In this document: positions 3,526 to 10,249 of the stretch, one piece after another
How positions within the stretch are numbered: position 1 is the first letter of the stretch
Layout: the number at the start of each line of letters is the position of its first letter
NCBI GenBank assembly: GCA_017441925.1
Contig: JAFRUE010000007.1
Coordinates: 248,001-312,000, forward strand
Length of the DNA stretch: 64,000 bases
Direction: 5' to 3'
From: Bacillota bacterium
GTDB lineage: Bacteria; Bacillota; Clostridia; Lachnospirales; Bianqueaceae
Notes under the pieces: generated by a model
Seen by the model: only the letters and a program-made list of their open reading frames with translations
Databases searched by the model: none
Told to the model about the DNA's origin: nothing
Program-made: the position numbers and the translations under genes

Positions 3526-5409
3526 TCAGCCACCGATCAGCGCGTCCAGAAGCTCCTGTGTGCGGCTGATGAAAGCATTCAGCTCCGCAGCCTCAAGCGG
3601 GCGGCTGGACAGCCTTGCGAGATCGTACATCTGGCAGGCGGCTTTCTTGACGAGCTCTTCGTTCTCGCTGGCAAGCAGGTGAGCTACAAGAGGACTGTTG
3701 GCGTTCACGACCAGTGTCTGGTCATTCTGACGGGCCAGTTCAGCCATGCCGTAGAGGCGGGCCATATCGTTCATACGCTGACCTTCTTCAGAATTCTCCA
3801 GCAGAACCGATACGCCGGTATCCTTCAGATTCTCCAGCTTTACATTCAGCTTGTCATTCTCAAGGGCTTCCCGGAAAATCTTTTCGGCCTTGGCGGCTTT
3901 TTCGGAATCAGTCTCAGCATCATCACTCTTGAGCGCCTCAGACAGATTTGTATCGACCCGCAGGAAACGAACGCCTTCGTTCTTGGACTCCAGCAGAGAG
4001 ATGAACGGCAGATCGATCGCGGTCGGCAGGATCACGGCATCCATATTCTGTCCCTTGAGCGCTGCAACGTACTGTGCCTGCTGGCGCGGATCAGAGGTGT
4101 AGAAGACCTTCTTGTCGTGCTTCTCCTTAGCGGCTTCCAGATAATCCGGAAGAGTCACATACTTGTCCGTGACGGCGGATTTGAAGATCAGGCAGTCCTT
4201 CATACGGTCATAGAACTTCTCGTTGCGCAGGCAGCCGTATTTTACAAAGGGATGGATGTCGTCCCAGTATTTCTCGTAATTCTCCCGCTCGGACGTGAAG
4301 AGGCTCTTCAGCTTGTCCGCGACCTTGCGGGTGATATAATCACTGATCTTGCGGACATATCCGTCATTCTGCAGGAAACTGCGGGAGACATTGAGCGGGA
4401 TGTCCGGGCAGTCGATCGTGCCTTTGAGCAGGAGCAGGAATTCCGGAATGACTTCCTTAACGTTGTCCGCAACGAAGACCTGGTTGCAGAAGAGCTTGAC
4501 CTGTCCCTCGGATGATTCGAACTCATTGCCGAGCTTGGGGAAGTAGAGGATGCCTTTCAGCCGGAACGGATAGTCCATGTTCAGATGGATCCAGAAGAGA
4601 GGCTCCTTGTAGTCCATAAAGACTTTATGATAGAAATTCTTATAATCGTCATCGGTCAGATCCTTGGCAGCGCGGGTCCACAGCGGCTCAACGTCGTTGA
4701 TCGGCTTAGGTTCCGGAAGTGAAGGCTCCGGCTCGCCGTCTTTATGGTTCTTGCGCATCTCCTCGAGGCGCTTCATCTCCTCCGCAGGATTGGTCAGATA
4801 GACCGGAACCGGCATGAAGGAGCAGTACTTGTCCATGATGGAGCGGAGCTCGTAGGTCTGCAGGTATTTCTCGCCGTCTTCGTTCACATGCAGAATGATG
4901 TCTGTACCGCGGTGATCACGGCTGCCGTCGGACATCTCGTAGGAAGATCCTCCGTCAGATGTCCAGAGGACAGCCTTAGCGCCTTCCTGATAGGACAGAC
5001 TGTGGATCTCGACGACCTTGGCGACCATGAAAGCAGAGTAGAAGCCAAGGCCGAAATGTCCGATGATCGGATCCTCGGTGGCGTCTTTATACTTCTCCAG
5101 AAACTCTGCGGCTCCGGAGAAAGCGACCTGATTGATATACTTGCGGACCTCTTCATCCGTCATACCGATACCGTTGTCGGAAACCGTGATTGTCTTGCCG
5201 GCTTCATCGATGGATACAGTGACCGCCCAGGTCTCGTCCTCGCCGACCTGCGCATCGCCCATGGCGGCTAGCTTTTTCATCTTGACGATCGCGTCGGCCG
5301 CATTGGAAACAAGCTCGCGGATAAAGATATCCTGATCGGAATACAACCATTTTTTAATGATAGGGAACAGATTCTCACTGTTTATAGAAAGATTCCCTTT
5401 TTCCTGCAT
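3526..5409 (-). CDS. htpG: HSP90-family molecular chaperone HtpG
   Basis: 627 residues, the normal length for bacterial Hsp90. The N-terminal GHKL ATPase domain shows RELVSNAADAI (catalytic Glu), DNGIGM and GHFGLGFYSAFMVA. The middle domain and a C-terminal dimerisation domain follow. The protein is a cytosolic ATP-dependent chaperone dimer. ATG 5409 is preceded by GAGGGGG. It starts 15 bases after the stop of the DUF5721-like gene, so the two are probably one transcript from the promoter at 5930-5958. No CIRCE or other heat-shock operator is visible at that promoter. Confidence 0.96.
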   Translation of the reverse strand: MQEKGNLSINSENLFPIIKKWLYSDQDIFIRELVSNAADAIVKMKKLAAMGDAQVGEDETWAVTVSIDEAGKTITVSDNGIGMTDEEVRKYINQVAFSGAAEFLEKYKDATEDPIIGHFGLGFYSAFMVAKVVEIHSLSYQEGAKAVLWTSDGGSSYEMSDGSRDHRGTDIILHVNEDGEKYLQTYELRSIMDKYCSFMPVPVYLTNPAEEMKRLEEMRKNHKDGEPEPSLPEPKPINDVEPLWTRAAKDLTDDDYKNFYHKVFMDYKEPLFWIHLNMDYPFRLKGILYFPKLGNEFESSEGQVKLFCNQVFVADNVKEVIPEFLLLLKGTIDCPDIPLNVSRSFLQNDGYVRKISDYITRKVADKLKSLFTSERENYEKYWDDIHPFVKYGCLRNEKFYDRMKDCLIFKSAVTDKYVTLPDYLEAAKEKHDKKVFYTSDPRQQAQYVAALKGQNMDAVILPTAIDLPFISLLESKNEGVRFLRVDTNLSEALKSDDAETDSEKAAKAEKIFREALENDKLNVKLENLKDTGVSVLLENSEEGQRMNDMARLYGMAELARQNDQTLVVNANSPLVAHLLASENEELVKKAACQMYDLARLSSRPLEAAELNAFISRTQELLDALIGG

Positions 5410-5424
5410 TGCAGATTCCCCCTC

Positions 5425-5895
5425 TTAGGATTGTGTAAATTCTATATGAAGCTTCTCAAGATAGGCCGGCAGGAAACTGTCCCAGAAAACCGCATCAGAA
5501 CGGTCCATACTGAAACTGCCGATCGAAATGCCGCTGATAAGCTTTAAGCTCTTGTCCTGAAAACGGATCGTCATCTGATACGATCCGGCTGTTGTCGACT
5601 GATGCCCGGCAAGCAACTCACGCGGACATGTCAGAACGATCGTCATGCGGAGCGGAGTACGGCCGGAACGGATAATGCCGGTAAGTACCTCGCGGAAGTC
5701 GGAGAAGACGAGTCCCGTTTCCTTGCGGGCTTCGCGTTCGGTCTCCGTCAGATAATCCGTATTGATACTCCCATCGATCGTGTACTGTGTAAGAGATGTC
5801 ACAGAAGCGCCCTGGAAACCCCAGCTGTCAAATGTATCGGACAGCAGAAGCAGGTTCATAAACGCGCGGACGTCGGCAACCTGAAGTGTAGTCAT
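5425..5895 (-). CDS. Hypothetical protein, DUF5721-like
   Basis: 156 residues starting MTTLQVADVRAFMNLLLLSDTFDSWGF, with GAAGAGG 7 bases before ATG 5895. The pattern (an early segment with FDS, then a TxFTIDG-like stretch, here TQYTIDGSINTDYL) resembles small Clostridia proteins of family DUF5721, from memory. No signal peptide or membrane segment is present; the sequence alternates beta-like segments rich in Thr and Ser. It is the first gene of a probable DUF5721-htpG(-trpS) transcript. Function unknown. Confidence 0.65.
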   Translation of the reverse strand: MTTLQVADVRAFMNLLLLSDTFDSWGFQGASVTSLTQYTIDGSINTDYLTETEREARKETGLVFSDFREVLTGIIRSGRTPLRMTIVLTCPRELLAGHQSTTAGSYQMTIRFQDKSLKLISGISIGSFSMDRSDAVFWDSFLPAYLEKLHIEFTQS

Positions 5896-5929: not shown

Positions 5930-5958
5930 ATTATACCACATTTCGGAGAGATAAGCAA
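5930..5958 (-). promoter_or_regulatory. Promoter for the DUF5721-htpG transcript
   Basis: On the minus strand TTGCTT is followed after 17 bases by TATAAT, with TG one base before the -10 (extended -10). It lies 35 bases upstream of ATG 5895. Confidence 0.7.
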
Positions 5959-6005: not shown

Positions 6006-6038
6006 AAAAAAAGCGCCCGGCTGTTACGTCAGCCGGGC
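6006..6038 (-). terminator. Terminator of the candidate small RNA
   Basis: 9-bp all-paired stem GCCCGGCTG/CAGCCGGGC with a 6-base loop (6015-6038), then GC and seven T residues on the minus strand (6006-6012). Confidence 0.85.
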
Positions 6039-6114
6039 AAAATAGAAGAAAGTTAAGAAAAGAGGAGATATACAAAAAGTGGATTATTCAAATTTGAGTT
6101 AGCAATGAACAGCT
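6006..6114 (-). ncRNA. Candidate stand-alone small RNA (~109 nt)
   Basis: A complete minus-strand transcription unit with no reading frame. It has a promoter (TTGCAT, 17 bases, TATAGT at 6121-6149), an expected 5' end near 6114, and a strong terminator (GCCCGGCTG/CAGCCGGGC hairpin at 6015-6038 followed by seven T). The flanking genes run divergently away from it, so the terminator cannot serve a known gene on this strand other than this unit. The middle of the RNA has a pyrimidine-rich tract including UAUAUCUCCUCUUUUC, complementary to GGAGG-type ribosome binding sites. There is no ATG or GTG in the RNA. By analogy with other Firmicutes small RNAs that use C/U-rich seeds, I infer translational repression in trans. 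Confidence 0.6.
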
Positions 6115-6149
6115 ATAGTCACTATAGCACAACTTTCCACAAAATGCAA
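6112..6149 (-). promoter_or_regulatory. Small RNA promoter with overlapping palindromic operator
   Basis: TTGCAT (6144-6149) and TATAGT (6121-6126) are separated by 17 bases on the minus strand. A perfect dyad GCTATAG-TCA-CTATAGC (6112-6128) covers the -10 and the predicted start point, as expected for a repressor site. The regulator is unknown. Confidence 0.6.
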
Positions 6150-6242: not shown

Positions 6243-7637
6243 ATGGTTAAGAAGAGCAGGGATAAGAACAGCCTTTCCATCATTATCGTCGGATGCGGCA
6301 AAGTCGGTTCGACTCTGGTGGAGCAGCTTTCACAGGAAGGCAACAACGACATTACGGTCGTCGATAAGGACCGCAATGTTGTGCATACCCTGTGCAATAC
6401 ATACGATGTTATGGGCGTCGTGGGCAACGGCGGCAGTTATAATATACTGATGGATGCCGGTATCGAGAAGGCGGATCTGATGGTCGCTGTTACGGATTCC
6501 GATGAACTGAATCTGCTTTGCTGCGTTATCGCGAAACAGGTCGGCAACTGCGCGACGATCGCGCGTGTCCGTACGCCGGATTACAGTACGGAGGTCGGTT
6601 ATATCCGCCAGAAGCTGGGCCTTACCATGATCATCAATCCAGAGGAAGAGGCCGCCAAAGAGGCCGCCCGTATCCTGTACCTTCCGAGCGCGCTGGAGAT
6701 CAACCCCTTTGCTCACGGACAGGCGGAGATGATCAAGTTCCGTGTGCCGCAGAATAATATCCTCGATGGCATGACGATCGCCTACCTTGGCAGCACGTTT
6801 ACTTCCAAAGTCCTGATCTGCGCTGTAGAGCGTTCGGGACAGATCTTTATCCCTTCCGGCGCGTTCCGTCTGGCGCACGGAGATATTATTTCCTTTGTGA
6901 GTTCAAGAGAAGATGCCAAGGCTTTCCTCAAGGATATCGGCTTCAATATCAAGCAGGTTGCCAGCACGATGATTATTGGAGGCGGCAAGTCTTCCTATTA
7001 TCTGGCAAAGCAGCTGCTGCATTCCGGGATCCGCGTCAAGATCATCGAGAAGGATCCGGAGAGATGTGAGGAGCTCAGCGATCTCCTGCCTAACGCGGTC
7101 ATCATCAATGAGGACGGTTCGAACGAAGACGTTCTTAAGGAAGAGGGCATCGCGTATACGGATTCCTTTGTCCCGCTGACCGGTATCGACGAGGAGAATA
7201 TCCTGCTGACGCTGTATGCAAGGCAGGTCTCGGATGCCAAGGTCATTACCAAGATCAACCGTATCTCTTTCAACAACGTTATAAACAGTCTGGATCTCGG
7301 CAGCGTAATCTATCCGCGGTATATCACTTCTGAAGCGATTATCGCGTATGTTCGCGCGAAGCAGGATTCCATGGGCAGCAATATCGAGACGCTGTACCAT
7401 CTGTTCGATCATCGCGTGGAGGCGATCGAGTTCCGTGTTGACCGCGACAGTGAAGTGACGGATACACCGCTCATGAATCTGAATCTGAAGCGCGACCTCC
7501 TGATCGCGTTCATCAACCGTAAAGGACAGATCCTGATCCCGTCCGGCCGTGACTGCATCATGAACGGAGACACGGTCATGATCGTTACGACACATCCCGG
7601 ATTCAACGACATCAGTGATATTTTGAGGGAAGACTGA
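6243..7637 (+). CDS. trkA: Trk potassium uptake system, peripheral NAD-binding protein TrkA
   Basis: 464 residues with two tandem RCK units, the usual TrkA architecture. The first Rossmann domain opens with IIIVGCGKVGSTLVEQL and an acidic residue ends beta-2 (VVDKD). The second starts near residue 240 with MIIGGGKSSYYLAKQLL. Each is followed by an RCK_C (TrkA_C) domain. The protein is cytosolic, binds nucleotide and gates the TrkH channel. AGGAGG lies 7 bases before ATG 6243. It ends 2 bases before trkH, so the pair forms one transcript from the promoter at 6188-6216. Confidence 0.97.
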   Translation: MVKKSRDKNSLSIIIVGCGKVGSTLVEQLSQEGNNDITVVDKDRNVVHTLCNTYDVMGVVGNGGSYNILMDAGIEKADLMVAVTDSDELNLLCCVIAKQVGNCATIARVRTPDYSTEVGYIRQKLGLTMIINPEEEAAKEAARILYLPSALEINPFAHGQAEMIKFRVPQNNILDGMTIAYLGSTFTSKVLICAVERSGQIFIPSGAFRLAHGDIISFVSSREDAKAFLKDIGFNIKQVASTMIIGGGKSSYYLAKQLLHSGIRVKIIEKDPERCEELSDLLPNAVIINEDGSNEDVLKEEGIAYTDSFVPLTGIDEENILLTLYARQVSDAKVITKINRISFNNVINSLDLGSVIYPRYITSEAIIAYVRAKQDSMGSNIETLYHLFDHRVEAIEFRVDRDSEVTDTPLMNLNLKRDLLIAFINRKGQILIPSGRDCIMNGDTVMIVTTHPGFNDISDILRED

Positions 7638-9187: not shown

Positions 9188-10249
9188 TTAACCCGGAAAA
9201 CCATCTGGCACGGTATCGGTAATGTTCAGGATCCTGAATCCGGCGTTCTCCGGAATATTGTAGGCTGAATGATAGACTCGTTCGTTAGGGATCCACTGGC
9301 TGTTGAACATCTTCAGAATCTCTGGGCCGTTGCGGCGCAGGATCCTTTCCTGCTGGAAATCGTCCGGCAGATCCGCAAAACAGGTCAGGTCCCAATGCGG
9401 AACAAGATCCGGCCGCAGGGAGTAGGAGCCTTCCACGATATAGACATCGGCTGTCGGGACATCGATCTCTGCAGTAAAACTGTCGCTGCGCGGATCATAA
9501 TGCCGGTAGGTGAAAGAACGGTGCTGCGCGAGCGGTGTCAGGACTTCTTCACGGAAACGCGGCATATCGACGTTCCAGCCGGGGACGGAAGTGAATTCCG
9601 GCGTACGCTCCCGGAAAGGAACATAGAAATCATCCACATGGATCACAGAAGCGCTGAAGACTGACGCGAGCATACGGGCAAGGGAGGTCTTGCCGGCGCC
9701 GCATTTCCCGTCGATCGCACAGATGAGCGGCTTTGCAGCCTTATCGATCGCCTGGATCAGCGGAAGAGCACGCAGCAGTGTACCCTCCAGTACACGGTAG
9801 GCAGGATGATAAGCGCTGCGGTAAACGTCCGAATGATGAATGGAAGGACAGCCGGAAGCGATATAGGCGGACAGACTGTCTGAAGGCTGCAGCAAAGTGA
9901 GAAGGGACGAAAGGTCCTCTGAATCGTCAGATCCGGGACGGATCGCCTCTCCGGTCTCGGCACCTGCCGCGAAGATCCGGTTCAGCAGATCAGGGGACAG
10001 ATTCCTACGGGAAGCTTCCTGCAGGGACAGACGGAACCGGTCGTTTCCAAGCGGTTCAAGCGGAGCAGAGATCTCAGAATCAAGCCGGCTGTATTCGCTC
10101 TTGAGATATTCAAGAGAAACGCCGCGGTCCGGAATCATATGTCCGGCACCGCGGCTGCGCTGATACATAAGCTTGATCCTGTCCTGTTCCGTCAGCTGCG
10201 GATAACGCTCTTCATGCCAGCGGAGAATGGACAGCGGATCGGTTTTCAT
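9188..10249 (-). CDS. Two-domain P-loop kinase of the uridine-kinase fold
   Basis: 353 residues. The C-terminal half (~residue 175 on) is a P-loop kinase: Walker A GKCGAGKTS (181-189), DDFY (206-209) as in uridine/pantothenate kinases, and a lid with ERILRRNG. Residues 1-~165 are an all-alpha-looking domain that I do not recognise. The start overlaps the stop of the upstream ECF S-component gene by 4 bases (ATGA), so translation of the two is coupled. That coupling suggests the kinase phosphorylates what the transporter brings in (inference). Annotation as uridine kinase would be a guess; vitamin or nucleoside substrates are equally possible. Confidence 0.7.
   Translation of the reverse strand: MKTDPLSILRWHEERYPQLTEQDRIKLMYQRSRGAGHMIPDRGVSLEYLKSEYSRLDSEISAPLEPLGNDRFRLSLQEASRRNLSPDLLNRIFAAGAETGEAIRPGSDDSEDLSSLLTLLQPSDSLSAYIASGCPSIHHSDVYRSAYHPAYRVLEGTLLRALPLIQAIDKAAKPLICAIDGKCGAGKTSLARMLASVFSASVIHVDDFYVPFRERTPEFTSVPGWNVDMPRFREEVLTPLAQHRSFTYRHYDPRSDSFTAEIDVPTADVYIVEGSYSLRPDLVPHWDLTCFADLPDDFQQERILRRNGPEILKMFNSQWIPNERVYHSAYNIPENAGFRILNITDTVPDGFPG

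Follow-up and report, generated by a model that had tools for sequence, protein, structure and literature searches.

A candidate small RNA with a nearly invariant anti-Shine-Dalgarno core in one family of Clostridia

Introduction

To our knowledge, few regulatory RNAs are known outside the model Firmicutes. The pyrimidine-rich anti-Shine-Dalgarno (anti-SD) small RNAs (sRNAs) RoxS/RsaE, FsrA and AbcR expose a C/U-rich motif that is complementary to ribosome-binding sites. Targets have been described for RoxS (PMC10433868) and AbcR (PMC8844928), and also for SpoY/SpoX and other Hfq sRNAs of Clostridioides difficile, which act by base pairing through an exposed seed (PMC10267692). GlnZ of the Enterobacteriaceae is an sRNA of the glnA 3′ untranslated region (3′ UTR) (PMC9731577). 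MalH and MicX of the gamma-proteobacteria are related to each other, yet one lineage obtains its sRNA by processing of an mRNA 3′ end and the other transcribes it from a promoter of its own; 3′ UTR-derived sRNAs are thought to be fewer in Gram-positive bacteria, an argument cited in the same work (PMC9438474).

Here we analyse an intergenic region in a 64,000-nucleotide stretch of a Clostridia genome (the window; genome G000). The host is apparently a gut or rumen clostridium. The region holds a short, probably non-coding RNA gene with a 42-base stretch that hardly changed while its surroundings diverged, and this makes it very likely that the gene specifies a real regulatory RNA. Like the C. 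difficile RNAs it belongs to the Clostridia, occurs together with Hfq and would base-pair through an exposed seed; it differs in that their targets are known, and no sequence relation to them is apparent. With RoxS/RsaE, FsrA and AbcR it shares the exposed C/U-rich motif, but in place of their short C-rich loops it has one long unstructured core, and it has no Rfam match: searches at gathering and permissive thresholds returned no convincing hit to a known family. The best E-value in the permissive scan fell to RF02278 (Betaproteobacteria_toxic_sRNA; 24.6 bits, E 0.006), which likewise combines a pyrimidine tract with a terminator; membership was rejected because the score is far below the gathering score of 50 and that family belongs to a different phylum. 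In the literature we found no description of this RNA.

Results and discussion

Architecture of the locus

Read directly from the sequence, the minus strand between trkA and the gene for a DUF5721 protein consists of a promoter, a predicted RNA and an intrinsic terminator. The features are:

6121..6149, minus strand: promoter TGCTATAGT, with a -35-like TTGCAT (6149-6144), a 17-nt spacer and an extended -10, TGC-TATAGT (6129-6121)
6006..6114, minus strand: predicted small RNA of about 108 nt, its start placed from the -10 and its end at the T run; conserved in G001 and G002
6006..6039, minus strand: intrinsic terminator, stem 6039-6014 and T tail; in relatives, hairpins of other sequence replace the stem
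6045..6086, minus strand: core TAATCCACTTTTTGTATATCTCCTCTTTTCTTAACTTTCTTC, 42 nt, pyrimidine-rich, predicted single-stranded; 42/42 in G001 and G002
6057..6072, minus strand: anti-SD tract UAUAUCUCCUCUUUUC, invariant in 6/6 genomes
6243..7637, plus strand: trkA, potassium uptake, the divergent upstream gene; trkH is next
5425..5895, minus strand: DUF5721 (PF18988), function not known, the downstream gene; syntenic in 6/6 core-bearing genomes
5930..5958, minus strand: DUF5721-htpG promoter, TTGCTT-17-TATAAT, separate and downstream of the sRNA terminator

The earlier note had called TTGCAT-17-TATAGT a good promoter. Its position and 17-nt spacer hold, and the extended -10 layout recurs with the same spacer length as TGCTATAAT in G001 and TGTTATAGT in G002, the two other genomes of the window's genus (g1). 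TTGCAT, however, matches only three of the six -35 consensus positions and is weak, which is why a consensus scan misses the promoter. Its strength resides in the extended -10 (TGC-TATAGT), where the hexamer TATAGT at 6126-6121 is preceded by TG one base upstream. The spacer sequence differs among the three g1 genomes; the layout is constant.

At its other end, the transcript closes with a stem of ten pairs, eight of them GC, followed by CTTTTTTT with a T7 run to about 6006. A terminator scan found this element, and the strong GC hairpin with T7 tail described before is thus borne out. The predicted transcript folds with -24.3 kcal/mol (z -4.5). Terminator hairpins of differing sequences stand at the same place in all six core-bearing genomes; that of G001 reads GCCUGGC-UUUU-GCUGGGC. 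As expected of an sRNA, the sequence thus has the form of an independent unit with an intrinsic terminator and a U tail, and this form is conserved in g1.

A conserved, exposed core

Promoter, core and terminator are kept in all three g1 genomes. Loss of promoter, tract and terminator from close relatives, which had been named as grounds for abandoning the candidate, did not occur, and a stand-alone small RNA carrying these conserved elements is well supported. At the level of the whole locus, identity to G002 is 88-89% over nearly the entire query; with G001, a run of 46 nt is identical. Conservation of the core exceeds chance: it is identical at 42/42 positions between G000 and G001, whereas next door the fourfold-degenerate sites of DUF5721 agree at only 4/22, i.e. 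are saturated, and the DUF5721 proteins are identical at 84/156 positions (54%). In a sister genus (g3; G005, G006 and G007), 37-38 of 41 aligned core positions are identical.

The heptamer CUCCUCU within the anti-SD tract is predicted to be unpaired with a probability of 0.98 in the window's RNA and of 0.85-0.99 in five of the six genomes, the value for G005 being 0.62 with the end of the coding sequence included. A conserved and exposed seed region, the second mark of an sRNA, is therefore found in the form of a nearly invariant core that is mostly unpaired by prediction. A constant core within a kept promoter and terminator layout is, as far as sequence comparison can tell, the pattern of a functional RNA whose exposed core is sequence-constrained.

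Could the region instead encode a small hydrophobic peptide (LYISSFLNFLLF...)? The transcript, put at about 109 nt and free of ATG and GTG starts in the earlier note, indeed comes to about 108 nt and contains neither codon. Two TTG codons are present, and from such a start the frame stays open through the core in several genomes. A peptide is nevertheless highly improbable: the TTG codons lack a ribosome-binding site, the invariant part shows no synonymous change, the frame is shifted in G006 and G007, where 1 nt is deleted, and the C-terminal parts extend through the terminator. On the opposite strand, a gene using AGAGGAGATATAC as ribosome-binding site was considered and rejected, as neither start nor frame is conserved.

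Relation to the DUF5721-htpG genes

The neighbouring genes had been described as running divergently away from the RNA. This is correct for trkA (plus) and DUF5721 (minus) relative to each other, but the RNA itself is co-directional with DUF5721. Together with the synteny to DUF5721-htpG in all six genomes, this orientation would suit a leader or attenuator of that operon, in which transcription from about 6114 stops at the terminator unless a signal permits read-through. We regard such a leader as quite unlikely. DUF5721 has its own promoter (5958-5930) past the terminator, and a similar one is present in all six core-bearing genomes, so that the RNA is not needed for DUF5721 expression. Because the invariant part is unstructured and does not pair with the varying terminator stems, no antiterminator is seen. 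Rfam yields no leader match either, and in g3 the upstream unit is the mRNA of a gltD-like gene. The hallmarks of a cis-acting leader, an alternative structure or obligatory read-through, are accordingly missing here: the downstream promoter is separate, and no alternative fold was seen.

The similar position of the core in each of the six genomes, 154-191 nt ahead of DUF5721, could also point to a DNA element, e.g. an operator serving DUF5721-htpG or the gene upstream. Such an element fits the anatomy of the transcription unit less well, since the core always lies within the unit just before an intrinsic terminator. It contains no palindrome, and the upstream genes vary from genome to genome (trkA, another gene or the gltD-like gene). 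We thus hold a DNA element to be very unlikely.

As a separate observation, htpG (3526-5409, minus strand) adjoins DUF5721 (5425-5895, minus strand) in the core-bearing loci read, and the pair also occurs in G004. DUF5721/htpG is therefore a conserved pair of functional interest.

Distribution

A sequence model of the core gave convincing matches in just six of 392 genomes of the order, in agreement with BLAST; the core was not found in 13 other genomes of the family or in about 370 others of the order. In front of DUF5721 it is absent, within the reach of the contigs, from ten genomes of the family's other three genera (g2, g4 and g5). Weak matches from the order's other families were rejected, as they mostly lie antisense of or in ribosome-binding or coding sequences and none shows a core followed by a terminator. 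Among 84,980 public species genomes, an exact 18-mer occurs in 41 stretches, five of them from this family; the remaining stretches were not accepted as homologues, as most of them resemble ordinary ribosome-binding sites or coding sequence read in antisense. The core thus appears to define a new sRNA family that is narrowly distributed within a single family of Clostridia; it stands as an autonomous gene in one genus and, apparently, in a 3′ UTR in the other.

The core behind a gltD-like gene in the sister genus

In the three g3 genomes the core lies upstream of the same DUF5721-htpG genes, yet its start lies directly at the end of a GltD/GltA-like oxidoreductase gene, whose TAA stop codon it includes. 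The best NCBIfam match of the encoded protein is TIGR01316 (335 bits, below the cut-off of 472 for the gltA equivalog). No consensus promoter was found just upstream of the core by a scan of G007, and none was detected by eye in G005 and G006; terminators of yet other sequence follow the core. It therefore occupies a 3′ UTR position between stop codon and terminator in G005-G007, which is not the case in the window. In g3 the core is probably the 3′ UTR of the gltD-like gene and would arise together with the mRNA of this gene, as its 3′ end. The label orphan, given to the RNA in the earlier note, consequently applies in g1 and not in g3. At the 3′ ends of gltD-like paralogues in the genera g2, g4 and g5, the core was not found.

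A possible trace of this arrangement is GAATAATC, which in g3 spans the final codon of the gltD-like gene, its stop and two further bases. The same string precedes or begins the core in G000 and G002, where there is no gltD-like gene. It may be a relic of the stop-codon context, and six genomes do not polarise the direction of change.

The g3 arrangement resembles GlnZ (PMC9731577) in that the core follows a gene of nitrogen-metabolism type and is ended by its terminator, the seed is conserved and Hfq is available. It differs from GlnZ in the gltD-like gene itself, in an unrelated sequence, in the own promoter found in the window's genus and in having no known target. MalH/MicX provide the parallel for a 3′ end state and an own-promoter state, although the sequence is unrelated and the phylum another; moreover, the MicX promoter lies inside an open reading frame (PMC9438474), whereas the gltD-like gene is absent beside the autonomous copy here. 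That a single sRNA core exists in two states within one Gram-positive family, in the 3′ UTR of a gltD-like mRNA in one genus and, under a promoter of its own, as a free-standing gene in another, is a tentative reading to which we give slightly less than an even chance. If true, control through a host mRNA has been either lost or gained by the sRNA, and this short, strongly conserved core would be a clear natural case of sRNAs changing their own regulation, besides giving a well-defined seed for target hunting in uncultured rumen bacteria.

Pairing potential and candidate targets

CUCCUCU is complementary to ribosome-binding sites of the GAGGAG type, and the complementarity to GGAGG-type sites claimed before is true as sequence. 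To what extent it is selective was judged from duplex energies on 368 initiation regions (about 17% of the genome). For the core, upstream regions differ from coding windows by -3.59 kcal/mol, compared with -3.36 kcal/mol for the 16S tail. When the core is shuffled at constant composition, the difference is -2.92 ± 0.54 kcal/mol, and 26 of 200 shuffled versions perform at least as well as the real core. The anti-SD affinity is thus genuine, but it stems largely from the pyrimidine composition, and the order of bases adds little.

The target prediction against gene 5′ ends that had been recommended brought out no candidate that stands above the others in these 368 regions, about 17% of the genome: the top duplex scores fall inside the control range. 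A complement of the 19-mer with up to three mismatches occurs in G000 only at the locus itself, and complements of the 14-mer are as frequent as in reversed controls, without enrichment. None of the leads examined gave a predicted target conserved across the family. The proposed role as a trans-acting translational repressor stays plausible, but neither an enrichment of complementary initiation regions nor a family-conserved target backs it.

This lack of enrichment, the U-richness of the core and the presence of hfq would also agree with an RNA that binds Hfq or some other RNA-binding protein, or serves as its decoy, and does not act by antisense pairing. The invariant run moreover extends over more than 20 contiguous bases and exceeds the usual seed length. 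Against this speaks that the most invariant segment holds a perfect anti-SD heptamer, CUCCUCU, and we judge a decoy to be unlikely.

We favour, with rather better than even confidence, the reading that the whole unit is an sRNA whose exposed core pairs with ribosome-binding sites of mRNAs, aided by Hfq. In the window's genus its own promoter, of the extended -10 type, would start the RNA and the intrinsic terminator would end it; in the sister genus the core would probably be produced as the 3′ end of the gltD-like mRNA. The exposed pyrimidine core could then pair with purine-rich ribosome-binding sites in at least one mRNA. Hfq, whose gene is present in 19/19 genomes of the family, may assist this pairing, and blocked ribosome entry would result in repression. 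We infer that antisense pairing at ribosome-binding sites is the most likely mechanism.

Several individual sites were inspected. In G000, the thyX 5′ region GTTAAGAAAGGAGATATACGGATTATTATG (L164:4612, minus strand; G000:C4, about 384612) can pair with the core over 10+9 bp, interrupted by a 2-nt bulge; it was rejected as a conserved target, as the pairing is partly kept in G002 and absent in G001. Sites at amtB (G002), metY (G001), metF (G006) and deoC (G006, G007) were not retained as family targets, their pairing being known from those genomes alone. The deoC ribosome-binding site carries AAGAAAAGAGGAGG, complementary to the core, in both G006 (G006:C17:4808, L128) and G007 (G007:C23:61107, L137), where deoC is divergent from the core-bearing gltD-like gene. 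No other lead is kept in two genomes, and these two are closely related.

Elsewhere in the window, the minus strand at 9188-10249 encodes a 353-aa protein with a weak match to Zeta_toxin/P-loop kinases (E 4.6e-4, under the Pfam cut-off), which is perhaps uridine-kinase-like.
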